A stretch of DNA of 52,892 bases from Aureitalea sp. L0-47 (GTDB lineage: Bacteria > Bacteroidota > Bacteroidia > Flavobacteriales > Flavobacteriaceae): assembly GCF_026126405.1 (NCBI RefSeq), contig NZ_JAFMTQ010000018.1, positions 1 to 52,892 on the forward strand, in the 5' to 3' direction. A program made the position numbers and the translations under genes. Positions 8,310 through 24,908 of the stretch are shown piece after piece (position 1 is the first letter of the stretch; each line of letters starts with the position of its first letter). Under the pieces are notes generated by a model that saw only the letters and a list, made by a program, of their open reading frames with translations, was not told the DNA's origin and ran no database searches.

Positions 8310-8331
8310 AATTACCTATTGAAGTGCCATA

Positions 8332-9610: not shown

Positions 9611-12166
9611 TCAGAAGAGAAGTTGAAAGGAGAAGTTAGGTGTAATACCGATAGATGAGGTCCTCACCTGGCTTACCGAGGTATTTCCGGAACCATCGTC
9701 GACAAGCGAGTATCTAATATTAAGAGTATTTCGCGTATCCAAAACATTTAGCACCGCAAGGTTGATCTTGGCTTCAATCTTATCAGAAAGCTGCCATAAA
9801 TATTCTGCGGAAGCGTCAAGGCGATAGTAGTCCGGTAATCGCTCTTCATTTGGATCATCGTATAGGATGATTTGTGAGAGGCCGTCGAATGTTGTTTCCT
9901 CTTCCTCCATCGGAATAGTGAAGGGCTTTCCTGTATGATAGTTAAGTCCAACCGCGATCTTTAATCTTTCCATAGGTGAATAAGAGCCGGCAACCGTAGC
10001 AGTATGTGTGACATCCAGGTTGTGCGGAAAGATCGATGGATCAAATGTCCCGAAATCGTATTCATTGTTCAGGTATGAATAACTCACCCAAATACTATAT
10101 GTTTTTTCCCTGCGGTTGATGATCAATTCACCCCCGGTAGCCGTATAGTTTCCAATCGCATTCGAGAACTGAAACTGATTTTGAAACCCCTGATTCCTGG
10201 AGGTTATACCCTCAACCATTTTGTAGAAACCTTCTGCATTCACAAACCATCCCTTTCGGTCGAACACAAGACCTACAGAACCCTGCTTGCTGTTAATTAC
10301 AGGAATATTTTCTTCATCGGCCAGGATCCATCGCCTTTTTTCAACACCCAAAAAATCACTATCGAAATCGATTCGCTGAGTGGTAGCCTGGCTCTTAATT
10401 TCTCCAAGTGCTTCGACCGAGAAGCCATTTCCTAAGTTCTGATGAACCGATATTCTCGGTTCCACCACAATCTTTTCAAACTTGTCGAAATAGTTAGCCC
10501 GAACTCCTGTAGAAATGTTTGTTTTTTCATTGTCCGACTTATACGTTAGACCCATAAAAACCGAATGCGTTCTGAGAACGTCCTTATCTAAATCGAGGAA
10601 TCGTGGTAAATTAACTTCCTGTTCATTGGTAATGCCAGTTTCCACAAATTGATACCCCCCGGTTAGCGAAACATTATTGGACAACAGTAAATGACCATCT
10701 GCTTTAATACCGGTCTCTAGCACATCGTTCTCCTGGAAAACCTCCTGGGTTGTAAGAAGATCGAGATTCAATGCACGGAGATAGTAGGTAGTGACATATC
10801 CCAGTACTTTGGTACGGAAGGTATCGTTCCACTGGCGTTCCCAGCTCACTCCTCCAAGAAGACTGCGTAAATTTAACTCACTTGTCTTGGAATTCCTCAG
10901 TGATGGGATGGTTTCTGTGAACTCCAGGGTATTGTTCATGGCGAGGAAATTGAGTCGGAACTTATCTCGCTCATTCAGATCCCACAATACCCTAGTGCTG
11001 AAATCGTAGAATGAAAAGTCCTCCTCGGCTGCAATGTCAAGGCCGGCTTCAGCAGCGTTTGTGTTGGTGATCTCGGTGTCTTGAAAAACCTTTTCCGAGT
11101 ACGTTCGATATACAGGGGATTCCCACAAGCTATTCAGTGAGATACGCCCCGAAAATTGCATACTCGCATTCTCCGAAACGGGTACCATCCCAAAGGCACT
11201 TCCATTGATCAGGTTGATCGCTGCCCCGCCTTTGAATTGAGTGTCGATTTCGTCTCGGGAATTCATGGAAATCACACCTGATACTCCATCACCGTACCTG
11301 GCCGGTGTTCCGTTCTTGTAGATATCTACGTCTGCAGTAATATCAGGATTAAAAGCCGAGATGAGACCAAAAAAGTGCCCGCTTTGATATGTTTTTATAT
11401 CGTTCCAAAGGATGAGGTTTTCATCGTGAGTGCCCCCCCGCACATTTATATTGGAAACGGTTTCATTTACACTTTGAATTCCCGGTAATGCCTGAGTGAC
11501 GAAGAGAATGTCATTTTCAACCTGCCCCGGCAGCAATCCGAATTCGGAAGTATTCAAGTGGATCGATCCATTCAGGGTCTTTTCGATACCCTGTACAAGA
11601 TAATTTGTGACAAACACAGTTTCCAGAGTAGATACTTCCGTAGGAATTAAAAAATTTTCACAGTCTTCGGATAATGATGAAACTGAAATTTCCCAGGGTT
11701 GATAACCTATATACCTTATCACTAAGCCTTCCTGGCCTATATACTTCGGAATATAGAAAGTACCATCTGAGCTGGCAATCGTACCATATGCGCTAAGTGT
11801 GGAAACTATACTGGCACCAGCAAGCGGTTGGCCCGTATCGGCGGCGATCAATTTACCGCACACATATTCTGAAACATTCCGAACAATAGATATATAGCGT
11901 TCATCGAGCTTATTGAATTGAACAGGTAGTTTTTGAATCAATTGGTCGAGCGCCTCATCAAGAGTTTCGACATCCTCGAATGCTATAGCCAGGTTCTCCA
12001 GTTCATCTGCAGCATAGGAAAAACGTATGTTGAAGGTGTCCTCTAATTGTTGTAGAACCGCGATCAGATCCTCGTTCTGAAGGTCCTGGCCCGTTCCTAT
12101 CTGAATGGAACAAACCCACAAGAATAACCACAGCAGTTGGTTGCGCCAATTCCGTTTACTTAACAT
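9611..12166 (-). CDS. TonB-dependent receptor with N-terminal signalling (STN) domain, locus 1
   Basis: An 851-residue outer-membrane receptor. After the signal peptide (ending GTGQ) comes an STN/secretin-like domain (about 32-88) that contacts FecR in the periplasm, then a carboxypeptidase-regulatory-like beta domain (about 102-175), a plug (about 190-305) with ALPGIQSVNETVSNINVRGG and ARYGDGVSGVISM, and a 22-strand barrel ending in an aromatic-terminated strand (NFSFQLLF). No SusD partner lies next to it, so this is a FecA-like transducer rather than a SusCD glycan importer. Its ATG overlaps the stop of fecR by 11 bases. It takes up and senses an unknown ligand. The receptor of locus 2 is a close paralogue. 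Confidence 0.93.
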   Translation of the reverse strand: MLSKRNWRNQLLWLFLWVCSIQIGTGQDLQNEDLIAVLQQLEDTFNIRFSYAADELENLAIAFEDVETLDEALDQLIQKLPVQFNKLDERYISIVRNVSEYVCGKLIAADTGQPLAGASIVSTLSAYGTIASSDGTFYIPKYIGQEGLVIRYIGYQPWEISVSSLSEDCENFLIPTEVSTLETVFVTNYLVQGIEKTLNGSIHLNTSEFGLLPGQVENDILFVTQALPGIQSVNETVSNINVRGGTHDENLILWNDIKTYQSGHFFGLISAFNPDITADVDIYKNGTPARYGDGVSGVISMNSRDEIDTQFKGGAAINLINGSAFGMVPVSENASMQFSGRISLNSLWESPVYRTYSEKVFQDTEITNTNAAEAGLDIAAEEDFSFYDFSTRVLWDLNERDKFRLNFLAMNNTLEFTETIPSLRNSKTSELNLRSLLGGVSWERQWNDTFRTKVLGYVTTYYLRALNLDLLTTQEVFQENDVLETGIKADGHLLLSNNVSLTGGYQFVETGITNEQEVNLPRFLDLDKDVLRTHSVFMGLTYKSDNEKTNISTGVRANYFDKFEKIVVEPRISVHQNLGNGFSVEALGEIKSQATTQRIDFDSDFLGVEKRRWILADEENIPVINSKQGSVGLVFDRKGWFVNAEGFYKMVEGITSRNQGFQNQFQFSNAIGNYTATGGELIINRREKTYSIWVSYSYLNNEYDFGTFDPSIFPHNLDVTHTATVAGSYSPMERLKIAVGLNYHTGKPFTIPMEEEETTFDGLSQIILYDDPNEERLPDYYRLDASAEYLWQLSDKIEAKINLAVLNVLDTRNTLNIRYSLVDDGSGNTSVSQVRTSSIGITPNFSFQLLF

Positions 12167-13055
12167 AGAGGGTCACTTCATCCCCTCCAACGGTATAACC
12201 AAGTCGGAGCGGATCGCAAATAGAACGGAGTGCTAACTCCAGGTTGTCATGCGTAAAGCTACCAGTAAAACGTTTGTTGGCTATATTTTCAGGTGAGGTT
12301 ATATTTATTGGATATTGCTGTTCTAATTCATTTATTACTTCGGAAAGAGTAGCGTTCTCAAAACTGCTCTCATTGGCTATCCAACTGGGCGCGCTATTAC
12401 TGATGGCAGTATGAACAACTATTTTATTATTCTGGACTTGCAATTTATTTCCGGCGGGGAGTTTAATAAGTGTATCATTGAACGCAACACTAACTAAGCC
12501 TTCGTAGCAGTTTATGCTGAAATTGCTCTCCCTTGAGAATACGTTGAATTGAGTTCCTAAAACCTTTACAGTTCCCTGGCTTGTTTCTACGCTGAAGGTA
12601 TTTCCCTTGGTTACTTTAAAGTAGGCTTCTCCATCTAAAGCGAGGGATCGATTTTTGTCCCAACTTCTTTTCTTATATCGAATCTCGGAGGAAGCATTTA
12701 GTTGTACTTCGGAATTGTCTGGTAAAGTGAAACTTTCTTTTTGTGCGACGCCTGTTCGCACACTAGTATCTACGGAGTTTATGAACACATAACTTACCAC
12801 AACTAACACGACCATTGCAGCTATTTGAAGTATCCTCTTATAGCTGGATCTATTCGAAGTACCGATTCTTTTCAGTTTTTCCTTCTGAATGGCTTCAAAG
12901 TTTGATTCTGCCTTGAATTCCGGTGGTTCAAATTCTGAAGTGCTTTCTGCTATCCGGGTATATTCGGCATATTCAGGATCAGAACGAAGGACCACAATAT
13001 CCTCCGCAGAAGCATCGCCGTTAAGATATTTGTGTAGTAGGTAATCTTTTTCCAT
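12156..13055 (-). CDS. FecR-family anti-sigma factor / signal transducer, locus 1
   Basis: A 299-residue inner-membrane protein. A short cytoplasmic N-terminal region (1-70) should bind the sigma factor. One transmembrane helix (about 74-92) leads to the periplasmic FecR domain (about 100-200, with LPDNSEVQLNASS, LDGEAYFKV and VLGTQFNV) and a C-terminal DUF4974/STN-like domain (about 225-298) that interacts with the receptor. Order sigma-fecR-receptor is standard for the FecIRA type. A promoter-like element sits just upstream, between the sigma stop and this ATG. Confidence 0.94.
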   Translation of the reverse strand: MEKDYLLHKYLNGDASAEDIVVLRSDPEYAEYTRIAESTSEFEPPEFKAESNFEAIQKEKLKRIGTSNRSSYKRILQIAAMVVLVVVSYVFINSVDTSVRTGVAQKESFTLPDNSEVQLNASSEIRYKKRSWDKNRSLALDGEAYFKVTKGNTFSVETSQGTVKVLGTQFNVFSRESNFSINCYEGLVSVAFNDTLIKLPAGNKLQVQNNKIVVHTAISNSAPSWIANESSFENATLSEVINELEQQYPINITSPENIANKRFTGSFTHDNLELALRSICDPLRLGYTVGGDEVTLYVK

Positions 13056-13073
13056 AATTCTGATAATTCATAG

Positions 13074-13104
13074 GTATAACAGTCATCTGGGATTTTACCC
13101 TACC
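13074..13104 (-). promoter_or_regulatory. Putative ECF-sigma promoter of fecR-receptor operon, locus 1
   Basis: On the minus strand GGTAGG-N16-CTGTTATAC, starting one base after the sigma stop codon and ending 19 bases before the fecR ATG. Sixteen bases between the two boxes fits a -35/-10 pair. The same element with identical spacing precedes the divergent lipoprotein of this locus and both target units of locus 2. Confidence 0.75.
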
Positions 13105-13611
13105 TTAAATATTTTTAAATTCAGTTCGCAGCGCTTTCAGGGCCTGGCTCATCCGCTTTTCAACCGCTTTTACACTAATATTTAAATGTTCTGCTATCTC
13201 AGTATATTTCATACCTTCAATTCTATTCAAAAGAAATGCCGTACGTTGTGCTTCACTCAAATTAGCTATGGCATCCTGTAATTTCTTATGATATTGTTTC
13301 TCCTCCAGCACGAATTCGGGAGATTGGTTATCCACCTTACTCGGACTTAGCTGTGCGTGTTTCAGGACTACTTTTTTATGAGCTACTTCGTTTAGAAAAG
13401 CATTATTGGCTACTGTAAATAAAAATGACTTGGCTTTATCCTTGGTTACCTTTGCACAATTGTTCCATAATTTTATAAAAGCCTCCTGCACCAGATCATC
13501 CGCCTGTGCTTCATCTCCGCATTTAAAATATACGAATCTCCAGACAGACTGACTAATATCATTGTAGATGCTGCTGAATACCATTTCATTGCAAACTGAT
13601 TTTTGATCCAA
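13105..13611 (-). CDS. FecI-like ECF RNA polymerase sigma factor, locus 1
   Basis: A 168-residue group IV sigma factor. Region 2 (about 15-80) includes ADDLVQEAFIKLWNNC for -10 recognition and core binding. Region 4 (about 110-163) includes AFLLNRIEGMKYTEIAEHLNIS and VEKRMSQALKALR for -35 recognition. The only usable start upstream of the conserved VC-[ND]-E segment, shared with the locus 2 sigma, is a TTG at the right end, and an in-frame stop lies four codons before it. A rare start codon may keep the level low. A TATATTTG box upstream points to housekeeping transcription rather than autoregulation. Confidence 0.93.
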   Translation of the reverse strand: MDQKSVCNEMVFSSIYNDISQSVWRFVYFKCGDEAQADDLVQEAFIKLWNNCAKVTKDKAKSFLFTVANNAFLNEVAHKKVVLKHAQLSPSKVDNQSPEFVLEEKQYHKKLQDAIANLSEAQRTAFLLNRIEGMKYTEIAEHLNISVKAVEKRMSQALKALRTEFKNI

Positions 13612-13637
13612 TATTTTGTTTTATAAAGTGGTTCAAT

Positions 13638-13645
13638 CAAATATA
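13638..13645 (-). promoter_or_regulatory. Housekeeping -7 box of sigma gene, locus 1
   Basis: TATATTTG on the minus strand matches the Bacteroidota TAnnTTTG box and lies about 27 bases before the TTG start. No convincing TTTG -33 box is seen. It overlaps the divergent regulatory gap that also carries the ECF-type element for the lipoprotein. Confidence 0.5.
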
Positions 13646-13668
13646 TCAAAAAAAAATCCATAAAGTAG

Positions 13669-13699
13669 GGTAGGGTATTTTGATCGAAGCCTGTTTAAC
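13669..13699 (+). promoter_or_regulatory. Putative ECF-sigma promoter of repeat lipoprotein, locus 1
   Basis: GGTAGG-N16-CTGTTTAAC, ending 26 bases before the lipoprotein ATG. It shares GGTAGGGTA and, 13 bases later, CTGTT with the fecR promoter of the same locus, while the locus 2 copies have GGTAGGAATTTTC and TTGTT. This suggests locus-specific recognition. Confidence 0.75.
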
Positions 13700-13724
13700 A
13701 TCCAAAGAACCTAAATAGAAAGAC

Positions 13725-15509
13725 ATGAAAAAATTTGCACGATTACCATTACTCCTTATTCTTGCCCTAACCTTCCTGGCTACTTCTTGCCAGAAGGAAG
13801 AGGAAATGTTTATTGATGAAACCAACGAAGAAACGATAACTGCCAATTCTGTGCTGGCCAACCTTCTGTTACGCACCTCGCAAAACGCCGGTGATCTGGA
13901 CGACATTATTGACGGGAGCAGTTGTTTCTCGGTTAAATTTCCTATTACCGTGATTGCGAACGGTCAGCAAGTTACCTTACTCGATGAGGATGATCTGGAT
14001 ATAATCGAAGCTATTTTCGATCAATTTCCTAACGACATTGATACTCTGGAGATCGTATTCCCCATTACGGTGATCTTAGATGATTATACCGAACTGGTCT
14101 TGAATAGCCAGGACGAACTTGATGCTCTTATTGCAGCCTGTGAGAATGATGGATTCCCCGACTCTATTAGTTGTCTGGATTTCGAATACCCGATCACATT
14201 CTTCACATTCGATAACAACCAGCAACAAACGGGTACCGTGACCGTGAATAACGATATGGAACTATATCAGTTCCTGAGTAATATTGGCGATGATGATTTC
14301 TTCAGCATCGATTATCCTATCAATGTGATCCTACAGGACGGTACTGTAGTGCAGGTCAATTCTAATTCGGAACTCGAAGCGCAGATCGAAGCGTGTGAAA
14401 ACAGCAGTGGTGGAGGAAACCCCATCGATCCTGCAGTATTTGAACAAAACCTTACCACGGGTGTATGGTATATCACTTATTTCTTTGACGATTTCGACGA
14501 AACATCAAACTACAACAGTTACGAATTTACTTTCGAAACTGATAATACTGCCCAGGCTACTAATGGAACCAATACTGTTCCGGGAACATGGATGTTCGAG
14601 GGTGGAAATACACCGGACCTTACGTTGTTCTTCGGAACGAACGACCCCTTCGACGAATTGGATGACGACTGGGATATAATCGAAGCAACTAATGAGATCA
14701 TTCGTCTGCGTGACGTAAGCGGCGATGGAAGTATAGACTATCTCACATTTGAACGCACGCCAGCCACAGGTGGAGGAGGAACAGGAACTAACGACCTGAT
14801 CAATGAGTTAACCGATGGAGTTTGGTATGTAAACTTACTGGATGACGATGGTGAGATCGAAACCTGTGACTACGTAGAGTATGTATTCACTTACAACCTG
14901 AATGGTACCGCAACAGCCGTAAGTGCCACAACCACGGTTAATGGTTTCTGGAGCGTTCAACTAGATGATGGAATGCTCGATCTTGTACTGAATTTTGACA
15001 TTACAGCCGACCCTAATTTTGAAGACATCAACGACGACTGGGATGTTACCTCCTTTAGTTCAGAACTGATAAGCCTCTTAGATGTAAGTGGTGGAAATGG
15101 CGGAACAGATGTTCTCGAGTTCGGAAGAATGCCAGCCACAGGATGTGGTGGAGGTGGCGGTGGATCTGCCCAGGCTCTAAATGATGCCTTGCTCGACGGA
15201 CTTTGGTTCGTAGCCGAATACCTGGACGACGGATTCGATGAAACCGGAATATACAACGGATATCAATTGGATTTCAGTGCCGGAGGATCGGTAACTGCTT
15301 CCAATGGCGGCAATAACTTCAACGGAACCTGGTCTGTGATCGACACCGGAGGTGATCTTGATCTGATGCTAGACTTCGGAACACAAATACCCTTCGATGA
15401 GTTCAATGACGACTGGGATGTGCTGAATTTTACCACTACCCTTGTAGAACTGGAAGATGTTAGTGGTGGCGGTGGTGGAACCGATAACCTAACACTTCAA
15501 AAACTTTAA
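13725..15509 (+). CDS. Modular lipoprotein: four-Cys PI-repeat domain plus three lipocalin-like repeats
   Basis: A 594-residue acidic lipoprotein (lipobox LATSC, Cys22). The N-terminal domain (about 40-225) has four tandem half-repeats, each opening with a strand such as F-P-I-T-V (72-76, 112-116, 156-160, 198-202) and continuing to a V-N-S-x-x-E-L helix. Cysteines 67, 139, 150 and 224 may form disulfides. A Gly-rich linker leads to three repeats (about 236-345, 355-468, 482-594) of a beta-barrel-like unit with G-x-W near the start, G-x-W-S in the middle, and D-D-W-D plus a D-V-S-G-[DG] turn near the end. The DVSGDGSID loop resembles a Ca2+-binding loop. Transcribed divergently from its sigma factor, it is probably a surface partner of the TonB receptor. 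Confidence 0.9.
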   Translation: MKKFARLPLLLILALTFLATSCQKEEEMFIDETNEETITANSVLANLLLRTSQNAGDLDDIIDGSSCFSVKFPITVIANGQQVTLLDEDDLDIIEAIFDQFPNDIDTLEIVFPITVILDDYTELVLNSQDELDALIAACENDGFPDSISCLDFEYPITFFTFDNNQQQTGTVTVNNDMELYQFLSNIGDDDFFSIDYPINVILQDGTVVQVNSNSELEAQIEACENSSGGGNPIDPAVFEQNLTTGVWYITYFFDDFDETSNYNSYEFTFETDNTAQATNGTNTVPGTWMFEGGNTPDLTLFFGTNDPFDELDDDWDIIEATNEIIRLRDVSGDGSIDYLTFERTPATGGGGTGTNDLINELTDGVWYVNLLDDDGEIETCDYVEYVFTYNLNGTATAVSATTTVNGFWSVQLDDGMLDLVLNFDITADPNFEDINDDWDVTSFSSELISLLDVSGGNGGTDVLEFGRMPATGCGGGGGGSAQALNDALLDGLWFVAEYLDDGFDETGIYNGYQLDFSAGGSVTASNGGNNFNGTWSVIDTGGDLDLMLDFGTQIPFDEFNDDWDVLNFTTTLVELEDVSGGGGGTDNLTLQKL

Positions 15510-15534
15510 AAATAACCCTTACAGAAAATAGTAA

Positions 15535-16017
15535 ATGATGAAAACGCAAATCTTAAAGACAGTTTTAGCCCTATTTGTTTCCTTAATGCTGGTTGGATGT
15601 TCCGATGATGATTCGAACGATACTAATACCAACAACAACTCAAATCTGGTTGCCGAGGCGAATCAGGTAGCCCAAAGCGGAAGTTGGAGAATCTCTTACT
15701 TCTGGGATTCAAACAAGGATGAAACCTCAAATTTCACAGGATATGTATTCAATTTCAATAGTGATGGTACTCTGGTAGCTACGCGAAACAATGACACGGT
15801 GAATGGAACATGGTCTGTAACTGACAGTAGTAGCAGTAGCTCATCGAGCAGTAACGATGTTGACTTCAATATCTTCTTCAATGTGCCTCAGAGTAGCGAT
15901 TTTGAAGATCTGAATGACGACTGGGATATCGTTTCCGTTACAAATACTATGATCGAACTCACGGATGTTAGTGGAGGAAACGGGGATACGGACTTCCTGA
16001 CATTTGTAAAGATCTAA
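15535..16017 (+). CDS. Lipoprotein with a single lipocalin-like repeat
   Basis: A 160-residue lipoprotein (lipobox LVGC; Cys near 22) followed by an Asn/Asp-rich linker and one copy of the repeat that occurs three times in the preceding gene. It keeps SGSWRISYFWD, DETSNFTGYVFNF, NGTWSV, LNDDWDIVSV and DVSGG. A nine-serine run encoded by mixed AGT/AGC/TCA/TCG codons interrupts the repeat. It starts 25 bases after the modular lipoprotein, so both should share the ECF-type promoter. A plausible stand-alone version or ancestor of the tandem repeats; function unknown. Confidence 0.88.
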   Translation: MMKTQILKTVLALFVSLMLVGCSDDDSNDTNTNNNSNLVAEANQVAQSGSWRISYFWDSNKDETSNFTGYVFNFNSDGTLVATRNNDTVNGTWSVTDSSSSSSSSSNDVDFNIFFNVPQSSDFEDLNDDWDIVSVTNTMIELTDVSGGNGDTDFLTFVKI

Positions 16018-16200
16018 TGAGTTTGGTTAGTTGACGGAGAGGTCTCCCGATCAGGGATTCGGAAAATTTAGGCAAACGATTTATCGTAATGAAATAGCCA
16101 TGAAAAAGAAAAGTCCAGGTGACTTCCGTTTCCGGACGAGATCTGACCAGGCGGCCTCTCCTTCCTTAACCAGGAATTAGCTCCTCCTTTTTGCCCCACT

Positions 16201-16235
16201 AAAAAGCCATCCAAATTAAACTGGATGGCTTTTTA
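16201..16235. terminator. Bidirectional intrinsic terminator between locus 1 and locus 2
   Basis: AAAAAGCCATCCA pairs with TGGATGGCTTTTT around a seven-base loop, with A and T tracts on both sides. It closes the plus-strand lipoprotein operon and the minus-strand locus 2 operon. The 180 bases before it hold no supported gene. Confidence 0.88.
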
Positions 16236-16252
16236 TTGTATTTGTATGTCCT

Positions 16253-16654
16253 TTATTCTTTGTGTTTCTGAAGTAGGGATTCTAACTCAGTTCTCATTTC
16301 GGAACGCTTAAGAATAAAAGCGCTTTCCTTTCTGTCATCTACCAATGTCAATACCGAAGTTAGCATTTCCCGTTTATTCGATTTTCCTTCGGGATCATTG
16401 GCGATCTTTTGAGCAAGGTTCATTATTTCCTCGTATTCTGAAGGTTCCAGGGAAACCCTGAAAGCTTCTCCTCCGGAATATACCCCGGAAGAGCTCTCTC
16501 TTTCGGTTATGGGATCATAGGAAAGAGCATCGGAGGATACTACATAGACATTATTGTTCTGGTCCGAATAAACTAATTTCATAGGGTTACTGCTTGTACA
16601 ATTCAGAAAAAAGAAAACGCCTAATACCGCTACAACTTGAATGGTCCGTTTCAT
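16253..16654 (-). CDS. Hypothetical small lipoprotein, coupled to M28 peptidase
   Basis: A 133-residue lipoprotein (hydrophobic segment then lipobox FLNC, Cys19). The mature part has a short beta-like N-terminal region (KLVYSDQNNNVYVV) and a helical Lys/Glu-rich C terminus. No family recognised. Its ATG shares one base with the stop of the upstream peptidase (TAATG), implying translational coupling. A role with the peptidase or receptor is inferred from position only. Confidence 0.8.
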   Translation of the reverse strand: MKRTIQVVAVLGVFFFLNCTSSNPMKLVYSDQNNNVYVVSSDALSYDPITERESSSGVYSGGEAFRVSLEPSEYEEIMNLAQKIANDPEGKSNKREMLTSVLTLVDDRKESAFILKRSEMRTELESLLQKHKE

Positions 16655-18132
16655 TATTTATCGTATAATGCTTTACCTGCTTCCTCGTATTTATCTCCGC
16701 TAACCCAGAAGGGACTGGTGCTGTCGTTAGCAATATTCCTACCTGCCAAAACATAGGCGCTGAAAAACTTAACTAAGTAATCGTAATCCATTGAATCTGC
16801 ATGGTCGCCCGGCTGGTGGTAGTATTTCGTCACTTCACCATCGAAGGAAGAGAATCCCATGGAAAAAGTAGGAGCGGGGATCCCTTTAGCCGCGAAGTGA
16901 ACATTATCACTCCGATCGAACAAACCCTGTTCCGGGGCCGGATCTTCTATGGCCTTAAGTCCGAAGGCAGCAGAAGCATCAATGATATTCTTCTCGGCTG
17001 TAGTTCTTGTAAGTCCGACAATGGTCGTGAGAGAGGTGTCATTATAGCCACCATTGTCGCTGTTGAAGCAATACACCATCTGTTCGAGCGGTAAAACCGG
17101 GTTTTCTACGTAATATTTGCTTCCCAGTAATCCTTCTTCCTCAGCAGTAAACATAATGAACAAGGCAGATCTCTTGGTTGGATACTTTGCCAGGTTTTCC
17201 GCCATGCTAAGCACGGTTGTCGTCCCAACGGCATTGTCCCTTGCGCCGTTATAGATTTTGTCTCCACTTGCATCGGGACTTCCAATACCCACATGGTCAT
17301 AATGCGCGGAATAGATGATATATTCGTTCTTTAACACCGGATCGGTTCCTTCAACAACACCAATCACGTTCTGAGATGAGATTATCTCGCTTTTACTTGG
17401 TAGCATTTCCACTTTAACTGTTGAGGTAGGAGATTCTTCGAATTGGGAGGTCATTTTTCCACCTTCGTCCCTCAACCAAACGTATCCAAATGAGGGATCG
17501 TCTTTTTTAGATTCTTCACCAACCAATTCCAATCGCGGGCCACTCATCCAATGTTCCACGCGGTTCCACATTCCCTGGTCCACATCCATTAATTCTAACA
17601 CCCCCAAAGCACCATTGGCCTTTGCCAGGGCTTCTTTTTGTCCTCTTAATCCAAAAGCCGAGCGAATCCCTGGGGACTTTTCGCTACCCGCTTTTACTAC
17701 AACGAACTTCTTCCGTACATCCTTTCCTTTATAATCGGACTCCATCCCGTGGCCGAGGTAAACTGCCTGAGTTGTGACTTTCAACTGGGCAGGATTCACC
17801 ACAAGTTTGTACTTGTATTCTTTCCCGTCGAAAGAAAGGAACATGGGCGCTGCGGCCTCTGTCTTTTTTAGAGGAACTTTTTGGTAATAATCACCTGTTT
17901 TGGGGTTAGGCTCTACACCATAACTCCTAAGAGAATTTGCAAGATAGGCCGCCGCGATTTTATTCTCCGGGGTTCCGGTTTTGCGCCCTTTTAGAAGATC
18001 ATCTGCAAGGAAATAGATGTGGCCCTCAATGTCACCCTTGTTCACCGTTGTCTCAACTTTTTCGATTTCCGATTGAGCGAAAGCTCCGGAGACCAATAGC
18101 AGTCCCAGGAAAGAAAGAAATACTTTTTTCAT
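16654..18132 (-). CDS. Exported M28-family zinc aminopeptidase
   Basis: A 492-residue protein with a Sec signal peptide (ending GAFAQ), a PA-like insert in the first half and a C-terminal M28 catalytic domain. Visible metal and catalytic motifs are YSAHYDHVGIG (zinc His), GARDNAVG (bridging Asp), TAEEEGLLGS (general base Glu and zinc ligand), NSDNGG, and a late YYHQPGDH with the last zinc His. It should cleave N-terminal residues from peptides in the periplasm or at the surface. It lies 46 bases after the TonB receptor of locus 2 with no terminator between, so the operon may link receptor-driven peptide uptake with peptide trimming. Confidence 0.92.
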   Translation of the reverse strand: MKKVFLSFLGLLLVSGAFAQSEIEKVETTVNKGDIEGHIYFLADDLLKGRKTGTPENKIAAAYLANSLRSYGVEPNPKTGDYYQKVPLKKTEAAAPMFLSFDGKEYKYKLVVNPAQLKVTTQAVYLGHGMESDYKGKDVRKKFVVVKAGSEKSPGIRSAFGLRGQKEALAKANGALGVLELMDVDQGMWNRVEHWMSGPRLELVGEESKKDDPSFGYVWLRDEGGKMTSQFEESPTSTVKVEMLPSKSEIISSQNVIGVVEGTDPVLKNEYIIYSAHYDHVGIGSPDASGDKIYNGARDNAVGTTTVLSMAENLAKYPTKRSALFIMFTAEEEGLLGSKYYVENPVLPLEQMVYCFNSDNGGYNDTSLTTIVGLTRTTAEKNIIDASAAFGLKAIEDPAPEQGLFDRSDNVHFAAKGIPAPTFSMGFSSFDGEVTKYYHQPGDHADSMDYDYLVKFFSAYVLAGRNIANDSTSPFWVSGDKYEEAGKALYDK

Positions 18133-18178
18133 ATGATTGTTTTACGTTTTTTGATTTGGTTAAAGATAGGGATTTGTC

Positions 18179-20686
18179 TCAGAAATTAATTCTGAAGGTG
18201 GCATTTGGAGTAAACGCAAGCGAATTCTCCCTTACCTTTTCCGGATCCCCGTCATTATTGAGCCTGTAGAAGCTATTCAGCTCATTCCGGGTATCGAGTA
18301 AATTCCAGAATGAAATACCGGCGAAGGCGTCCATGTTTTTTCCGAAGGGAAACTTGTAAGTACCCGAAATATCAACACGGATGTAATCGTCGATATTGGC
18401 AGCATTAGGGGCGTCGAAATTCAATTGTCCGTCTACAATTTCGTTGCCCGGAACCAGCAAGGTGATCGGTTTACCACTGTGCCAGTTAAATCCTCCGGAA
18501 ATGTTGAATTCGTTTAAACTGTAATTGATTCCGTAGGTAAACGTATGGCGAATGTCCAGATTGTTCGGAAAGGAAGAGGGTGAAAGGTTGTCAAAGGTAT
18601 AATCGTTCTCAGCGTAGGAATAGCTCAACCAGGTATTCACTTTCTTGAAACGTTTATTAACCAAAACATCAACTCCTTTAACTGTATAGCTGCCATGGGT
18701 TCTTGCTGTTTCAAATTGATTCTGAAAACCCTGGCTTTGAGTAGTGATCCCGTCTATTTCTTTTATATAAGGTTCTACGTTGATCAACCAACCGTTCCTG
18801 CTATAATCGATCCCAACTGAAAGTTGTTCGCTCTTCAAAATAGGTATTTCACCTTCCCGGGCTAGCACCCATCGGCGATTTTCCACACCCAGGAAATCAT
18901 TTTGAAGATCTATTATCTGAGAAGTGGTCTGACTCTTTAACTCTCCTGCGATGTCTATGGAAAAGTACTTCAGGAAGCGATAATTAAAGCTCAATCTCGG
19001 CTCAAACAGGAATTCGTTGAATTTACTCACGTGATTAACCCTAACTCCACCTGTGATAGTGGTATTCGAATTCTTAGGTTGCAAGCTGGCCTGAACAAAA
19101 CCGCTGTTGGTGCGGATCACTTGCTTGTCTGTTCTTTCAAAGAATGGATTGTTGATCTGTTCGAAATTGGTGATGCCGGTTTCGTTAAACTGGTATCCGG
19201 CCATTAAAGATGTTGTGGAAGAGGGATTGTAAAACATTCTCGTTTTGAACCCATTTTCCAGTACATCATTGTTCTGAAGTAAACGCTGATTATTCAGAAG
19301 GTCAAAGTTTGTGGCCTGCAATGAGTAAGATGATCCGTAGAACTGTATGTCGGAAACAAAGGATTCGTTCCAGTTTCTTCGATAATAGAGTCCCCCTGAA
19401 TAATTTTCCTGTGAAAGTTCACTCTGCCTGGACTGCCGGTCACCATCGATCAAAGCATTCTCCTGAAAACCCAACTGATTTCCGAGCAAGAGAAAGTTGG
19501 CCCTGAAGTAATCCTTGGAAGTAGGTTGATATACGAGTCTGAAATGTGTGTCGTAGAAGGTAAAGTCGTCATTTGAGGCCGATTGAGCAGCGGAGTTGGA
19601 TACTACTTCGGTATTCTGAAAAGCCTTGTCGAAGTATTGGGAATAGGTGATGGTCTCGAAGAGGTTGTTGAACGATTTCCGACCGGCTATTTGGACAGAA
19701 GCTTTGGAACCCAAGGGAATATCAACATGGGCATCCGTACTAATGGCATTGATACCCCAGCCACCATTGAATTCAGTGGCAATAGTGTCGTCACCCATCA
19801 TACTGATAATACCTGAAACCCCGTCTCCGTATTGGGAACTGCTACCGTTCTTAATTACTTTTACCTCGCTTGTAAGGAATGGATTAAAGGCGGATATCTG
19901 TCCGAAGAAATGCCCACTCTGGTACATCTTGATCCCATCCCATAGAATCAGGTTCTGGTCGTTGGTTCCCCCTCGTATGTTGATAAATGAAACCGTTTCA
20001 TTAACGCTTTGAATTCCAGGTAAGGCCTGGATGGTTTGCAGTACGTCCGGTTCAATGAGACCGGGGAGGATGTCGAATTCTTTGTAATTAACATTTAGCG
20101 AACCATCCACATTTTTGGTGATACCCCGGGCCAGGTAATTTACCAGTGTAACCGTGTTTAGAAATTCTACTTTCCTCTGAAGGGGTACCGTATTACAATC
20201 GACCTCTATTAAGTTTTCGGGGAGGAGTGTAATCCGTTCATATCCGGTGTACGAGACCACAATAGGATCCTGGTTGTTAAGATATTCAACCGAAACCACT
20301 CCGTTCGCACCACTTGAAAGTTGCTGATATGGAGTAACAACTGATACATTTTCAAAGGGCTGATCGAATTCCGTAGTGATAGTAAGGCAACGAGAGGGTA
20401 GATTTTCTTTCTTGCCTACCGCAATGGTATTGTCTTCCAGTAGGGTGTAATTGAATAAGGTGGTAGCCGAAAGTTGCTGGACTAATTCGGTGAGATTATT
20501 TGCTTTGGGTATTTCTGAATAGTGATATTGGAGATCCAGGTCCTTGTAGGAGAAAGTACATTGATAGGTGGTCTCCAGGGAGCGGAATACATCACGCAGC
20601 GACTTCGGCTGTTCCGAAGATTGCCCCCATAAAAAACTCAAACTGAAAAATGTGAAAAGTAATGCTAACTTCCTTCCCTGGGTCAC
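18179..20686 (-). CDS. TonB-dependent receptor with N-terminal signalling (STN) domain, locus 2
   Basis: An 835-residue paralogue of the locus 1 receptor with the same domain order: signal peptide (ending LWGQ), STN domain (about 26-85), a shortened carboxypeptidase-regulatory-like segment (about 98-165), a plug with ALPGIQSVNETVSFINIRGG and SQYGDGVSGIISM, and a barrel ending in a terminal Phe (ATFRINF). The start is GTG, three codons after the in-frame stop of fecR (TAA CCA AGA GTG); no ATG is available. As a transducer it should signal ligand occupancy to FecR. Unlike locus 1 it is followed by a peptidase gene. Confidence 0.92.
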   Translation of the reverse strand: MTQGRKLALLFTFFSLSFLWGQSSEQPKSLRDVFRSLETTYQCTFSYKDLDLQYHYSEIPKANNLTELVQQLSATTLFNYTLLEDNTIAVGKKENLPSRCLTITTEFDQPFENVSVVTPYQQLSSGANGVVSVEYLNNQDPIVVSYTGYERITLLPENLIEVDCNTVPLQRKVEFLNTVTLVNYLARGITKNVDGSLNVNYKEFDILPGLIEPDVLQTIQALPGIQSVNETVSFINIRGGTNDQNLILWDGIKMYQSGHFFGQISAFNPFLTSEVKVIKNGSSSQYGDGVSGIISMMGDDTIATEFNGGWGINAISTDAHVDIPLGSKASVQIAGRKSFNNLFETITYSQYFDKAFQNTEVVSNSAAQSASNDDFTFYDTHFRLVYQPTSKDYFRANFLLLGNQLGFQENALIDGDRQSRQSELSQENYSGGLYYRRNWNESFVSDIQFYGSSYSLQATNFDLLNNQRLLQNNDVLENGFKTRMFYNPSSTTSLMAGYQFNETGITNFEQINNPFFERTDKQVIRTNSGFVQASLQPKNSNTTITGGVRVNHVSKFNEFLFEPRLSFNYRFLKYFSIDIAGELKSQTTSQIIDLQNDFLGVENRRWVLAREGEIPILKSEQLSVGIDYSRNGWLINVEPYIKEIDGITTQSQGFQNQFETARTHGSYTVKGVDVLVNKRFKKVNTWLSYSYAENDYTFDNLSPSSFPNNLDIRHTFTYGINYSLNEFNISGGFNWHSGKPITLLVPGNEIVDGQLNFDAPNAANIDDYIRVDISGTYKFPFGKNMDAFAGISFWNLLDTRNELNSFYRLNNDGDPEKVRENSLAFTPNATFRINF

Positions 20687-20692
20687 TCTTGG

Positions 20693-21586
20693 TTATTTTT
20701 TTAGAACCACGCTTTTACCATTAATAGAGTAAGACAAGTTAAGGGGAATTGTAATAGCCTGCAAGGCTGTGTCTAAATTTTGATTGGAAAAGCTTCCTGA
20801 GAATAAAGTGTTACTGGTTATGGCTTCGCCGGACACTTGCACATCAAATTGGCGCTCAAGTTCCTGAATCACTTCACGTATGGGCACGCTTTTAAAGACA
20901 GATTTATTTTCCAGCCAGCTCGGTTTACCAAGAGCTGTTTTTTCACTAACCACCATATCTCCGTATGCTTTAACGGCATCACCGGCGGCCAATTCATAGG
21001 TTTTACCTTCGAATTCCACACGAACCAAACCTTCATAGCAACTCACTTCAAAATAAGTGGAGCGATCTTTTACTTTAAATTGTGTTCCAAGGACAGTAAC
21101 AACGCCTTGAGAACTATGAACACTGAATTTCTTCCCTTTTGCGACTTTAAAATATGCCTCACCCTCCAAATTAACTTCTCTGCTATCGTCCCAATTCTCT
21201 TCTTTAAAAGAGATGGAAGACCCTGCATTGAGTATCACTTCGGAAGTATCTGGTAAAACAAACTCCGTCCTGGCAGAATTCTCTGCAACGTATTCTGTAG
21301 ATTGAGGAGAATTCAACAAGGCAAATAATCCGAACGCGACCACAAGGGTGGCAGCAATTCCTGAAATATAACCGTACAGAGGTCGAATCGACTTCTTTCG
21401 ATTTCCGAGTTTATTTTTGAGATCCTGATAACTGGATTCAGTATTGAATTCAGGAGCTTTGAAGTACTTTGCAGCCCTGTCAATACGGTGATAGGAAGCG
21501 GAAACATCCAAGTTCTCGAATGTTTCCTTTTCCGTATCACTGAGGTTAAAGTTTAACCATTTAGAAATTAAATCCTTCTTTTTCAT
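20693..21586 (-). CDS. FecR-family anti-sigma factor / signal transducer, locus 2
   Basis: A 297-residue protein from the ATG (MKKKDLISKW). A TTG two codons earlier is possible but lies closer to the predicted transcription start. Cytoplasmic N-terminal part (1-70), one transmembrane helix (about 73-92), periplasmic FecR domain with LPDTSEVILNAGSS, LEGEAYFKVAKG and VLGTQFKV, and a C-terminal DUF4974-like domain (about 222-296). Paralogous to the locus 1 protein, with the strongest similarity in the FecR core. Followed after six bases by the receptor gene. Confidence 0.94.
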   Translation of the reverse strand: MKKKDLISKWLNFNLSDTEKETFENLDVSASYHRIDRAAKYFKAPEFNTESSYQDLKNKLGNRKKSIRPLYGYISGIAATLVVAFGLFALLNSPQSTEYVAENSARTEFVLPDTSEVILNAGSSISFKEENWDDSREVNLEGEAYFKVAKGKKFSVHSSQGVVTVLGTQFKVKDRSTYFEVSCYEGLVRVEFEGKTYELAAGDAVKAYGDMVVSEKTALGKPSWLENKSVFKSVPIREVIQELERQFDVQVSGEAITSNTLFSGSFSNQNLDTALQAITIPLNLSYSINGKSVVLKK

Positions 21587-21601
21587 AATCAATTTCTATG
21601 T

Positions 21602-21632
21602 ATATAACAATCGTGATCTGAAAATTCCTACC
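21602..21632 (-). promoter_or_regulatory. Putative ECF-sigma promoter of fecR-receptor operon, locus 2
   Basis: Minus strand GGTAGG-N16-TTGTTATAT, 16 bases before the fecR ATG. The first 13 bases (GGTAGGAATTTTC) and the last nine (TTGTTATAT) are identical to the element before the divergent lipoprotein of the same locus, while the intervening nine bases differ, so only the functional parts appear conserved. Confidence 0.8.
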
Positions 21633-21642
21633 ATGCAGGCAA

Positions 21643-22158
21643 TTAAATCCCGTCGATCTCTTTCCGAAGTTTTTCTAAAGCCGAATAAATACGCTTCTCT
21701 ACCGCCTTTCTGGATATGTTCAGCATTTCGGCAATTTCTTTATGACGCTTGCCTTCAACCCTATTCAGTAGGAAGGCAACGCGTTGTCCTTCCGTGAGTT
21801 TAGCAAGTGCCGCCTGGTATTTGGCGAGGTATTCGGCCTCCTCCATGATGAACTCAGGGGATTCATTGGTGTGTTGCTTCGGTTTGGATTGCTGGTATTT
21901 TAGAACAACCTTTTTATGCTTTAAATCGTTAAGAGTGATATTATTGATAACGGTGAACAGAAAACTTCTAGCTTTCTCGGGCGCAACTGTTTTGCAATTG
22001 CGCCATAATTTTATAAACGCTTCTTGTACCTTATCCTCTGGATTAACATGTTCGCCGTATTTGTAATATATGAAGTCGTGCAGATCTTTCGAATGCTCCT
22101 CATAGAGTTTCGAGAAATACTGTTCGTCACACACATTTTTAAAAAGAGGGGTTGACAT
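21643..22158 (-). CDS. FecI-like ECF RNA polymerase sigma factor, locus 2
   Basis: A 171-residue ECF sigma with region 2 (NPEDKVQEAFIKLWRNC) and region 4 (AFLLNRVEGKRHKEIAEMLNIS, then VEKRIYSALEKLRK). It is paralogous to the locus 1 sigma along its whole length but differs in region 2.4/4.2 side chains, consistent with different promoter preference. The start is ATG. A TATATTTG box about 15 bases upstream suggests constitutive transcription, with activity set by FecR. Confidence 0.94.
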   Translation of the reverse strand: MSTPLFKNVCDEQYFSKLYEEHSKDLHDFIYYKYGEHVNPEDKVQEAFIKLWRNCKTVAPEKARSFLFTVINNITLNDLKHKKVVLKYQQSKPKQHTNESPEFIMEEAEYLAKYQAALAKLTEGQRVAFLLNRVEGKRHKEIAEMLNISRKAVEKRIYSALEKLRKEIDGI

Positions 22159-22172
22159 GCTGCGAATTTCGA

Positions 22173-22180
22173 CAAATATA
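22173..22180 (-). promoter_or_regulatory. Housekeeping -7 box of sigma gene, locus 2
   Basis: TATATTTG on the minus strand, a perfect TAnnTTTG match 15 bases before the sigma ATG. It lies next to the divergent ECF-type element, so the two promoters are back to back within 60 bases. Confidence 0.55.
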
Positions 22181-22194
22181 AAAATATTAAAACG

Positions 22195-22225
22195 GGTAGG
22201 AATTTTCGTTTCAGAGTTGTTATAT
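22195..22225 (+). promoter_or_regulatory. Putative ECF-sigma promoter of lipoprotein, locus 2
   Basis: GGTAGG-N16-TTGTTATAT. It ends nine bases before the first ATG and 15 before the second, predicting a very short leader. It excludes the far upstream in-frame ATG that overlaps the sigma start as the real start. Confidence 0.8.
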
Positions 22226-22234
22226 TATCAAAAA

Positions 22235-22891
22235 ATGAAGATGAAGTACTTTTTGTACGTAATGTTGGCGTTAGCCTTTGTAAGTTGCCAGGAAGAAGAA
22301 CTTACCGTAGTTCAGGCTCCCGATGATGAATCGTTCATACAAGATGGTCAGCTTAAAAAGTTGATCATGTCTGTCGTTTCTCACGACGGATCGTATGATG
22401 ATATTGTAGACGATTCTTCCTGTTTCAGTATTAATTTCCCCTATATATGTATCTACAGAGGGAGAGAATACCCGGTGAACTCTATTGAGGCCCTCTCTGT
22501 ATTTGGAGAAGGCGCCAATTTGATGCCCAAATTTCCTGTAACCGTTACCCTTGCAGATTACATAAGCGCAGAAGTACCGAATATCGAAGTCTATCGAGAC
22601 CTTCAAAATGCCTGTGCGAACGGGACTTTATTCAACGATAGTATAACTTGTGTAGATATTAGCTACCCTGTGAATATCTCTATATACAATACAATAACAT
22701 CTAATTTCGAAACCATTTCCTTCTTACACGACAAGCAGACCTTTCAAACGATAGAGGAGATGGACGAAAGCCTTATTGCCAATATTCAGTATCCAATAGA
22801 GATACTCTTACCTAATAACGTTGTTCTCACAATTGAATCGAATGATGTGCTTAAATCGGAAATTTTAAGCATGATACCTATTTGTGAGTAA
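22235..22891 (+). CDS. Lipoprotein consisting of the four-Cys PI-repeat domain, locus 2
   Basis: A 218-residue lipoprotein (lipobox AFVSC) whose mature part aligns with the N-terminal domain of the locus 1 modular lipoprotein. Shared are DD-I-[VI]-D-x-SSCFS, FP-[VI]-TV, DSI-[ST]-C at the start of the second half, YP-[IV] strands and a final CE. The four cysteines are kept in the same order. It lacks the lipocalin-like repeats. I chose the first ATG after the putative promoter; the ATG two codons later is equally possible. Probably the surface partner of the locus 2 receptor. Uncharacterised family. Confidence 0.87.
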   Translation: MKMKYFLYVMLALAFVSCQEEELTVVQAPDDESFIQDGQLKKLIMSVVSHDGSYDDIVDDSSCFSINFPYICIYRGREYPVNSIEALSVFGEGANLMPKFPVTVTLADYISAEVPNIEVYRDLQNACANGTLFNDSITCVDISYPVNISIYNTITSNFETISFLHDKQTFQTIEEMDESLIANIQYPIEILLPNNVVLTIESNDVLKSEILSMIPICE

Positions 22892-22917
22892 CCCGCTTAT
22901 GTTTAGTTATGTTAATT

Positions 22918-22946
22918 TGACCCTCCACCCTGGAGGGTTATTTTAT
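22918..22946 (+). terminator. Intrinsic terminator after locus 2 lipoprotein
   Basis: CCCTCCA pairs with TGGAGGG around a three-base loop, followed by a T-rich tail. It separates the lipoprotein from the fasciclin gene, so the latter needs its own promoter. Confidence 0.75.
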
Positions 22947-23007
22947 TTCTGTTTTTTGTTTAAACATTAACTTAAATAGTTAAACAAATATTAAAATCGG
23001 ATTTTCC

Positions 23008-23038
23008 GGTAGTAGTTTCTATGAATGGGTTGTTTCAT
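23008..23038 (+). promoter_or_regulatory. Putative ECF-sigma promoter of fasciclin gene
   Basis: GGTAGT-N16-TTGTTTCAT, 28 bases before the ATG. One mismatch in the first box relative to the four other elements, same spacing. The spacer begins AGTTTC, closer to the AATTTTC of locus 2 than to the locus 1 type. This is a weaker match, but it is placed where a promoter is required. Confidence 0.55.
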
Positions 23039-23066: not shown

Positions 23067-24908
23067 ATGAAAAATCTATTTAAAATATCACTTCTAGCGT
23101 TCCTGATGATTTTCGCGACCGCTTGTAGTGACGATGATAACGGGGATACAACACCGGTAACGGAAGATACCATTGCTGTTTTTGTTCAGAACAACCCTGA
23201 TTATTCTTCACTTCTTGCCGCTCTTGAAAGAGCTGGTCTTGTAGAAACATTAAACGGTTCAACCGAGTACACGGTATTCGCTCCGAACAATGATGCATTT
23301 GCTGCTTTCTTGAACGACAACGGGTTCGCCAGCCTGGACGATGTGCCGGTTGACCTTCTTACTAATGTATTATTAAACCACGTAGTTAACGGAACAAATA
23401 ATTCCGGAGATCTCTCAACAGGGTACATTAACTCTCTGGCAACTTTCGGAACGACTGATTTTAACCTTAGCTTGTTCGTCGATACTAGCTCAGGAGTACG
23501 AGTAAATAACGTAGCTTCAGTGACTACACCGGACGTAGCGGTAAGCAATGGTGTAATCCATGCTGTAGATACAGTTATTGGTATTCCGACTATCGTGACT
23601 CAGGCAACTGCAAACCCAGATTTCTCTATTCTGGTAGAAGCATTAATCGCTGCTACTGACGCTAACACCGACTACGTAGCTCTATTATCCGGATCTACTT
23701 CTTCTCCATTCACAGTATTTGCGCCAACCAACGACGCATTTGCTAACCTATTGGCGACTTTAGGAGTAGCTTCTTTGGATGACATTCCACAGAATGTACT
23801 TCAATTGGTGCTAAACTATCACGTAATTGCTGGAGCAAACGTACGCGCCGGAGATCTTTCAGAAGGCCTTACAGCTACAACGTTCCAGGGTGAAGATATT
23901 ACTATTTCCCTTGCAAACGGACCTCAAATAATCGACGCTACCGGTATGCCATCTAACATCATTGTTACCGATGTTCAAACGGGTAACGGAGTAGTTCACG
24001 CTATTGATAAAGTGATCCTTCCACAGGCAGTAATTGACATCATCGATCCTACGATTGCCGGACTTGCAATGATGACTGCAGACCTATCTACGCTGGCCGA
24101 AGCGCTTCAAATTACTGGATTAGACGCTGCTTTAAACGACAGATCTGCTGAGTTTACTGTATTTGCACCAGGAAATGCTGCATTCGATGCCTTCCTTTCA
24201 GACAATGGATTTGCGAATTTAGGTGAGGTGCCAGTAGATGTATTAACACAAGTTATTCTAAACCACGCCCTAACGGGAACAAATTTATCTACCAGCCTGT
24301 CAACTTCATATGATAATACACTGGCTACTTTCGGTACATCCGATGATAACCTAAGTATCTACATCAATACAGATAGTGGAGTAACGCTTAACGGAGTTTC
24401 TAACGTAGTAACCCCAGACGTTACAGCTGCCAATGGTGTAGTGCATATCGTTGACGCTGTGATCGGATTGCCAACAGTTGTGACTTTCGCAGTAGCCGAT
24501 CCAACATTCGAAACACTTGTTGCGGCCCTAACACGTCCGGACCAACCAGACTTCGTCTCTGTTCTTAGCACTGCTAACGGAACAAGTCCAGCTCCGTTCA
24601 CAGTATTTGCTCCAACAAATGCTGCCTTCGGAGACTTACTAGTCGAATTAGGAATTGGAAGTCTTGACGATATCGATACAGCTACGCTAACAGCTACCCT
24701 GAATACGCACGTAATTCCGGAAGCTAATGTTAGAGCTGAAGATCTAGTTGATGGACCGGTTTCAACTCTTGGTGACGATATCACTATCGACGCTACAAAC
24801 GGCACCATTACCGACCAAAATGGACGCGTAAGTACTATAATCGTTGTGAATGTTCAGGCAGCCAACGGTGTAGTTCACGCTATAGACACAGTACTATTGC
24901 CTCAATAG
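23067..24908 (+). CDS. Four-domain fasciclin (FAS1) lipoprotein
   Basis: A 613-residue lipoprotein (lipobox ATAC, Cys20; then an Asp-rich linker) with four FAS1 domains at about 35-173, 177-319, 328-467 and 471-613. Each has the family H1 motif TVFAP-x-N-x-AF and an H2 region ending NGV-[IV]-H-x-[IV]-D-x-V-I. Domains 1 and 3 resemble each other, as do 2 and 4, so the protein arose by duplicating a two-domain unit. FAS1 proteins mediate adhesion to surfaces, matrix or glycans, and this one is probably exposed on the outer membrane. It follows locus 2 and carries a related promoter element. Confidence 0.95.
   Translation: MKNLFKISLLAFLMIFATACSDDDNGDTTPVTEDTIAVFVQNNPDYSSLLAALERAGLVETLNGSTEYTVFAPNNDAFAAFLNDNGFASLDDVPVDLLTNVLLNHVVNGTNNSGDLSTGYINSLATFGTTDFNLSLFVDTSSGVRVNNVASVTTPDVAVSNGVIHAVDTVIGIPTIVTQATANPDFSILVEALIAATDANTDYVALLSGSTSSPFTVFAPTNDAFANLLATLGVASLDDIPQNVLQLVLNYHVIAGANVRAGDLSEGLTATTFQGEDITISLANGPQIIDATGMPSNIIVTDVQTGNGVVHAIDKVILPQAVIDIIDPTIAGLAMMTADLSTLAEALQITGLDAALNDRSAEFTVFAPGNAAFDAFLSDNGFANLGEVPVDVLTQVILNHALTGTNLSTSLSTSYDNTLATFGTSDDNLSIYINTDSGVTLNGVSNVVTPDVTAANGVVHIVDAVIGLPTVVTFAVADPTFETLVAALTRPDQPDFVSVLSTANGTSPAPFTVFAPTNAAFGDLLVELGIGSLDDIDTATLTATLNTHVIPEANVRAEDLVDGPVSTLGDDITIDATNGTITDQNGRVSTIIVVNVQAANGVVHAIDTVLLPQ

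Follow-up and report, generated by a model that had tools for sequence, protein, structure and literature searches.

Organization of the two sigma factor loci

The window analysed here is the whole 52,892-nucleotide contig NZ_JAFMTQ010000018.1 (contig C9) of Aureitalea sp. L0-47, whose genome (G000) comprises 3.38 Mb in 67 contigs. Two loci containing genes for a TonB-dependent receptor, a FecR-type regulator and an extracytoplasmic function (ECF) sigma factor were identified in this window by Pfam profile matches. In each locus the sigma gene is directly followed by an element of the form GGTAGG-N16-YTGTT and then by the fecR and receptor genes. A second copy of the element lies 5' of the sigma gene and points away from it, ahead of a lipoprotein gene. 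These elements have the appearance of promoters recognized by two ECF sigma factors of the FecI type.

The first locus contains the genes for receptor 1 (9611..12166, minus strand), the anti-sigma/sigma regulator FecR1 (12156..13055, minus strand; PF04773 and PF16344) and sigma 1 (13105..13611, minus strand; PF04542 and PF08281), which has a TTG start. Receptor 1 carries an N-terminal signalling domain (FecR_C/STN-like) and a carboxypeptidase-regulatory-like domain (PF16344, PF13715, PF07715). The predicted promoter of fecR1 and receptor 1, GGTAGGGTA-N13-CTGTT, directly follows the sigma-1 stop codon (13074..13104, minus strand), and that of the divergent lipoprotein 1 is located at 13669..13699 (plus strand); both are motif matches that are kept in relatives. 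Lipoprotein 1 (13725..15509, plus strand) consists of an N-terminal domain followed by weakly META-like repeats that score below the Pfam cut-off. The adjacent gene encodes a small lipoprotein (15535..16017, plus strand) that corresponds, by sequence comparison, to one copy of the lipoprotein-1 C-terminal repeat.

The second locus contains the genes for receptor 2 (18179..20686, minus strand), which also has an N-terminal signalling domain by Pfam, FecR2 (20693..21586, minus strand; PF04773 and PF16344; ATG start read from the sequence) and sigma 2 (21643..22158, minus strand; Pfam). PF16344, at residues 28-92, and a plug domain are found in both window receptors. The predicted promoter of fecR2 and receptor 2, GGTAGGAATTTTC ... 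TTGTTATAT (21602..21632, minus strand), and that of the divergent lipoprotein 2 (22195..22225, plus strand) are motif matches kept in the genus. Lipoprotein 2 (22235..22891, plus strand) is followed by a sigma-2-like predicted promoter with GTAGT replacing GTAGG (23008..23038, plus strand; a one-mismatch match) and by the gene of a fasciclin-domain lipoprotein (23067..24908, plus strand; PF02469).

An ECF sigma factor with regions 2 and 4 adjoins a FecR-domain regulator in both window loci and in a third locus on contig C12. The top-ranked family for the window sigma factors is NCBIfam TIGR02985 (Sig70_bacteroi1); sigma 1 (123.7 bits) and sigma 2 (112.3 bits) are not filed in it because both score below the cut-off of 126.4 bits. 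The two divergent lipoproteins (13725-15509 and 22235-22891) have a common N-terminal domain, and their homologues adjoin the sigma gene in relatives. Pfam returned no match for lipoprotein 2, and the AlphaFold model of this protein (predicted local distance difference test score, 88.7) gave no fold match in the PDB at E ≤ 0.001. The model contains repeated strand-pair and helix units.

Elements in the window and in the genome

The pattern GGTAGG-N16-YTGTT occurs exactly four times in the window, at 13104-13078 (minus), 13669-13695 (plus), 21632-21606 (minus) and 22195-22221 (plus). Dinucleotide shuffles of the window contained a mean of 0.02 exact elements, and none of 100 shuffles reached four. 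The original prediction had proposed four co-spaced elements at these places; its start positions are correct, whereas the ends it gave lie about 4 bases beyond the second box. When one mismatch is allowed, six matches are found compared with 1.23 expected. The two additions are an unrelated match at 1055 and the site at 23008-23034 (plus), which was the fifth copy anticipated ahead of the fasciclin gene. The distance from TGTT to the ATG is 13-32 bases for all five window elements. The elements within a locus resemble each other more than those of the other locus, as had also been predicted.

Across the genome, 17 places match the generic pattern exactly, compared with six for the reversed pattern, so that the generic pattern on its own is too noisy for calling promoters. 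Nine of its exact matches, on contigs C10, C11, C14, C15, C22, C44 and C67, are tied to no gene. The locus-1 form, GGTAGGGTA-N13-CTGTT, has five exact matches (two in the window and three on contig C4), and none was found for the reversed control or for the N12 spacing used as a shifted-spacing control. One further match has a single mismatch and 29 have two; since the reversed control gives 26 at two or fewer mismatches, only the exact matches stand out. The genome scan for random matches that had been suggested at the outset does not speak against the extended locus-1 boxes but does so in part against the short generic pattern.

Predicted promoter of the sigma genes

The sigma genes were expected to lack the element, and both carry a housekeeping-type box, TATATTTG, instead. 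This -7 box is located at 13638..13645 (minus strand) for sigma 1 and at 22173..22180 (minus strand) for sigma 2, its first base preceding the start codon by 34 and 22 bases, respectively. It is of the TAnnTTTG type, a published box type of the housekeeping sigma factor (PMC9723704, PMC7366714). A TAnnTTTG box was found within 90 bases of the sigma start in 64 of 129 loci with a divergent element (shuffled control, 4; reversed, 6; reverse complement, 12), these loci being related and hence not an independent sample. In 48 of these 64 loci, 17-25 bases lie between the divergent -35 box and TAnnTTTG, the commonest spacing being 22-24, and the distance from TAnnTTTG to the start codon varies more widely. 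This geometry suggests that two polymerases would overlap and may compete. With the predicted housekeeping promoter this close to the divergent one, occupancy of the target may repress synthesis of the sigma factor.

Placement of the element in Flavobacteriaceae

Two sets of loci, which overlap in genomes (G232 is identical to G003), were used for comparison. The named set consists of the best 80 of 487 confirmed sigma relatives. The FecR set consists of the first 120 places of a ranked list without G000 and G001, which is not a random draw; 116 of these places, all in Flavobacteriaceae, have an upstream sigma gene. In the named set, the element was found after the sigma gene in 76 loci, divergently in 65 and pointing into the sigma gene in none, compared with none for the reversed control and one for the reverse complement. 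The corresponding counts in the FecR set were 82, 73 and 1; shuffling gave a mean of 0.38 and at most 3. Downstream of the sigma gene the spacer is almost always 16 bases: spacers of 13, 14, 15, 17, 18 and 19 do not occur, one of 12 and four of 20 do. An open frame was found on the divergent side in 65 of the 80 named loci, and 58 of these encode a homologue of the window lipoproteins.

The sites fall into four main classes, namely A (GTAGGG..TGTT), B (GTAGGA..TGTT, with any base but G at position 7), C (GTAGGG..TGTC) and D (TCAGG..TGTT). The downstream and divergent promoters belong to the same class in 68 of the 69 FecR-set loci in which both were classified.

Match between promoter class and sigma protein

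Exact duplicate proteins and those outside 140-200 residues were removed before the tree was built and residues were counted. Residue counts also exclude sigma hits below 60 bits, class E and unclassified loci, which leaves 144 non-redundant sigma factors; residue numbers follow sigma 2. On a tree of 124 sigma proteins the promoter classes require nine changes, compared with a shuffled mean of 48.9. Class D forms one supported clade and class C has at least two origins.

Several residues of the region-4.2 recognition helix go with the -35 box. Residue 155 is K in 132 of 132 sigma factors with GTAGG and Y in 12 of 12 with TCAGG. All 58 loci with a base other than G at position 7 have Y at residue 158; where base 7 is G (86 loci), this residue is S or H in 79 loci and Y in five. 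These five loci all lie inside the Y158 group and have V150, whereas V or I occurs at residue 150 in four of the 46 class-B loci with Y158. In the comparison of base 8 with residue 158, one of five supported pairs changes the same way and four do not differ. The window proteins differ accordingly, with V150, M157 and S158 in sigma 1 and R150, I157 and Y158 in sigma 2. These associations are strong, although they still contain the effect of clade history, and suggest that each promoter variant has changed together with the regulator protein that would read it. A search for a -10 specificity residue distinguishing TGTC from TGTT returned columns A59, D78 and K94, but these were scattered and unconvincing.

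Paralogues within one genome were of the same class in none of 15 sampled pairs, compared with 31% of 3388 between-genome pairs. The chance of this result is about 0.4% if the pairs are independent, which they are not quite. Five genomes with five or six FecR genes (27 loci) were also inspected; only one gave two classified loci (A and B), and most other FecR genes in these genomes belong to distant sigma groups or have unclassified sites.

An alternative explanation is that sigma 1 and sigma 2, and perhaps the third sigma factor, read each other's promoters, so that the variants represent drift within one shared regulon with no insulation. The GTAGG and TGTT core is common to both variants, the similarity between the sites of a locus is partly inheritance, and cross-talk among ECF sigma factors is known in general. 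Shared reading is nevertheless unlikely in view of the agreement in class between the two sites of a locus (68 of 69), the lack of a common class among the sampled same-genome paralogues (0 of 15) and the genus comparison, in which both variants stay at their own locus in all seven genomes (some G004 copies are altered) while the spacers diverge. The earlier proposal of two insulated sigma specificities is thus upheld by comparison as far as two sigma-specific variants are concerned (seven genus genomes, 68 of 69 loci, 15 of 15 pairs); functional insulation is what we infer from them.

Distant sites of the sigma-1 type

Exact sigma-1-type sites number two to five per genome in all seven genus genomes, 22 in total, and the reversed control has none. 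The sigma-1 locus accounts for 14 of these sites, including one ahead of a second copy of the lipoprotein in G004, and a multihaem-cytochrome cluster for eight. In Aureitalea sp. L0-47 this cluster (L009, G000:C4:80000-99000, positions 3309-17036) carries the three C4 sites; neither the cluster nor the sites had been noticed in the original prediction. Its genes encode a membrane protein, an iron-sulfur/flavin adenine dinucleotide oxidoreductase, two multihaem cytochromes and a large fused ResB/CcsA-type cytochrome assembly protein. The two cytochromes contain 23 and 19 CxxCH motifs (42 in all). From its gene content, the cluster possibly encodes an extracellular respiration pathway.

The cytochrome was present in seven of seven genus genomes when it was sought by protein. 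Nine clusters were read with the relaxed pattern NGTAGG-N16-NTGTT, the seven of the genus and those of G205 (Luteirhabdus pelagi) and G209 (metagenome-assembled genome Ww86), and the site precedes the cytochrome operon in all nine, G205 and G209 having been found through their sites. The operon site is present in seven of seven genus genomes, with one fixed base changed in G003, G004 and G005. A second site precedes cytA in seven of the nine clusters, and a site precedes the assembly gene in three of the eight clusters that include this gene. One further relaxed match in G002 has the opposite orientation and is tied to no gene.

The cytochrome sites might instead be read by another sigma factor of the genome, which contains 19 sigma region-2 matches. 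The cluster lies on a different contig from sigma 1 and includes a Crp-like regulator, and the C4 contig has no FecR and no sigma region-2 match. Such a reader is quite improbable, since the C4 boxes are identical to the sigma-1 locus sites in 14 fixed positions, no exact match exists in the genome beyond these five places, and the operon site recurs in all seven genus genomes and in the two outside it. Sigma 1 therefore is the preferred candidate for reading these sites.

A total of 63 class-A places were found in 25 of the 30 named genomes searched (control, 0), and the five genomes with none were all reached through a class-B sigma factor. Remote class-A sites are located 5' of a META-like repeat protein in five genomes and of a 121-122 residue lipoprotein with a single CxxCH in three; the others precede different proteins or no clear gene.

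Candidate sigma-2 targets and the third locus

The pattern GGTAGGAATTT-N11-YTGTT, with at most one mismatch, gives a pair of sites at the sigma-2 locus in seven of seven genus genomes; 13 of these 14 sites are exact and one has a mismatch. The search returned 22 places in the genus, the 14 of the locus pairs and eight elsewhere (control, 2). The form [AG]GTAGTA...TTGTT is retained before the fasciclin orthologue in three further genus genomes. Two of these eight, in G003 and G004, and a related site on contig C64 of Aureitalea sp. L0-47 (L018, G000:C64:11500-16500, position 2620, minus strand), a possible target missed in the original prediction, precede a plastocyanin-like protein with a type IX secretion system (T9SS) sorting tail (PF00127 and PF18962 in the L0-47 copy). 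Its assignment to sigma 2 is tentative because two of these three sites have G at base 7. In three other genomes, the loci L172, L173 and L175 have a class-A site before the single-CxxCH lipoprotein and also hold a plastocyanin-like homologue. Given this pairing, control of the copper protein may have passed from one sigma system to another.

The genome contains three FecR genes. The third FecIR-receptor locus, likewise absent from the original prediction, is located on contig C12 (L010, G000:C12:1-8000, positions 241-4256) and has a shifted element, GGTAGT-N15-CTGTT, between sigma and fecR. Its receptor matches the plug domain alone by Pfam. L231, which stands beside L010 on the sigma tree, carries GGTAGC-N15-TTGTT. 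The L010 sigma factor has G at the position where sigma factors of classes A-D have E154. Since the C12 locus has its own form of the element, the three systems of the genome carry three different variants.

Proposed mechanism

The two loci are best explained as paralogous surface-signalling modules in which each sigma factor would read its own flanking promoters and a few others; the probability of this explanation is estimated at roughly 85%. It builds on what was directly observed, namely the sites, their geometry and conservation, the correlation of the class of a site with the clade and residues of its sigma factor, and the linkage to target genes. Each sigma gene would be transcribed by the housekeeping sigma factor and flanked by two promoters read by its own product, one directing transcription of fecR and the receptor gene and the other that of the divergent lipoprotein gene. 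On sensing a ligand, the receptor would cause FecR to free or activate the sigma factor, and the sigma-RNA polymerase would then fire the two local promoters and a few others. The further target of sigma 1 would be the distant multihaem-cytochrome operon, and those of sigma 2 the fasciclin gene and perhaps that of the plastocyanin-like protein. Specificity would reside in bases 7-8 of the -35 box (GT for sigma 1 and AA for sigma 2), matched by the region-4.2 recognition helix. Firing would yield more FecR and receptor but not more sigma factor, and would therefore provide negative feedback. That each sigma factor reads these sites, that a ligand is sensed, that FecR acts in this direction, that feedback results and that cross-talk is absent are predictions.

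Several observations weigh against this explanation. The promoter classes were defined after the sites had been seen. Among the sigma residues that distinguish the classes, most mark clades, and the link between residue 155 and TCA is a single event. In independent-pair tests, base 7 and residue 150 change mostly in the same direction, but with at most three supported-branch pairs and below significance. On the divergent side, spacers other than 16 occur zero to three times each (two at 13, one at 18 and two at 19). No downstream site of any class was found in 33 of the 116 loci; some of these keep the -35 box with another -10 (GCGTT, TGGTT), and others belong to distant sigma groups. In the cytochrome clusters of G004 and G205 the relaxed pattern finds no site before cytA itself, and two of the nine clusters came to light because of their sites. 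The fasciclin-type site was not seen before two other homologues. Outside the family, 26 class-level loci were examined, of which 23 have a sigma gene; two of the 23 have the element downstream and none divergently. As only two of the 23 fit, the explanation is confined to Flavobacteriaceae.

Four loci, L066, L091, L286 and L229, keep the -35 box and show CGGTT, TGGTT, GCGTT and GGATT, respectively, at the -10 distance. Further promoter classes may therefore exist.

A role of the elements as processing sites, or as operators bound by one common transcription factor, was rejected as very improbable. The boxes are short and the start sites are predicted, but the spacer is fixed at 16 downstream of sigma genes (none at 13-15 or 17-19). 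The element is also directional, is associated with sigma genes and, in the window, precedes a start codon by 13-32 bases, and its -35 box varies with the recognition helix of the sigma factor, which would be unexpected for an operator.

A broader view of the two modules is held more tentatively and is somewhat doubtful as a whole. They would belong to a naturally insulated sigma-promoter family of the Flavobacteriaceae in which the outward pair of promoters is re-tuned together with the helix, paralogues avoid sharing a class, target occupancy represses sigma synthesis and one system, acting from a surface receptor, turns on the pathway with 42 CxxCH motifs.

Relation to known systems and significance

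The loci resemble the FecI-FecR-FecA system of Escherichia coli in having an ECF sigma factor, a FecR protein with FecR and C-terminal domains and a TonB receptor with an N-terminal signalling domain. In E. coli, fecI and fecR form one operon under sigma70/Fur, the sigma factor is transcribed by the housekeeping sigma and is not autoregulated, and FecI reads the fecA promoter (PMC9249621). Here, in contrast, one proposed sigma-read promoter lies between the sigma gene and fecR, which would therefore make the anti-sigma factor a target, and a second one would drive the divergent lipoprotein gene. In the HasI-HasS-HasR system of Serratia the sigma factor is likewise not autoregulated and the anti-sigma gene is transcribed by the sigma factor (PMC9249621). 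The promoter placement found here would fit this logic of a target anti-sigma with a non-autoregulated sigma factor. HasI-HasS-HasR is, however, a single haem system from another phylum, and the account available in PMC9249621 describes no bracketing promoter pair around its sigma gene.

Related promoters have been described in the same phylum. The SigW-1 and SigH-1 promoters of Bacteroides thetaiotaomicron have TGTT near -10 and were proposed for ECF use; these factors belong to the ECF251 and ECF114 groups, and the portion of the source consulted gives neither a GTAGG -35 box nor a FecR-receptor locus logic (PMC12596196). The SM6 motif of Flavobacterium psychrophilum, an ECF promoter class from the same family, has a -10 containing CGT and is associated with T9SS genes and with an ECF/anti-sigma pair; the main text on it mentions neither FecR nor GGTAG (PMC9723704). 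The motif itself may not be new, because the ECF classification may list a related logo for this group. No published account of the promoter pair or of the multihaem-cytochrome link was found in the literature searched, in which cytochromes were little targeted.

The SigI factors of clostridia belong to a different sigma group with a different sensor chemistry and are not known to be TonB based. They offer a parallel in that cellulosomal clostridia have a paralogous set of sigma factors regulating related extracellular functions (PMC6056542).

These loci bear on the question of how cross-talk is avoided in a genome that contains many ECF systems. Because a short promoter of fixed geometry stands at one predictable place beside the sigma gene, the two can be matched with each other directly from the sequence of many genomes. 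The specificity code, which relates bases 7-8 and GTA/TCA to residues 150, 155 and 158, becomes directly testable. A TonB-receptor signalling system would be linked to a large multihaem-cytochrome operon, and the pairing of sigma factor and promoter allows regulons to be predicted in a family for which genetic tools are scarce.

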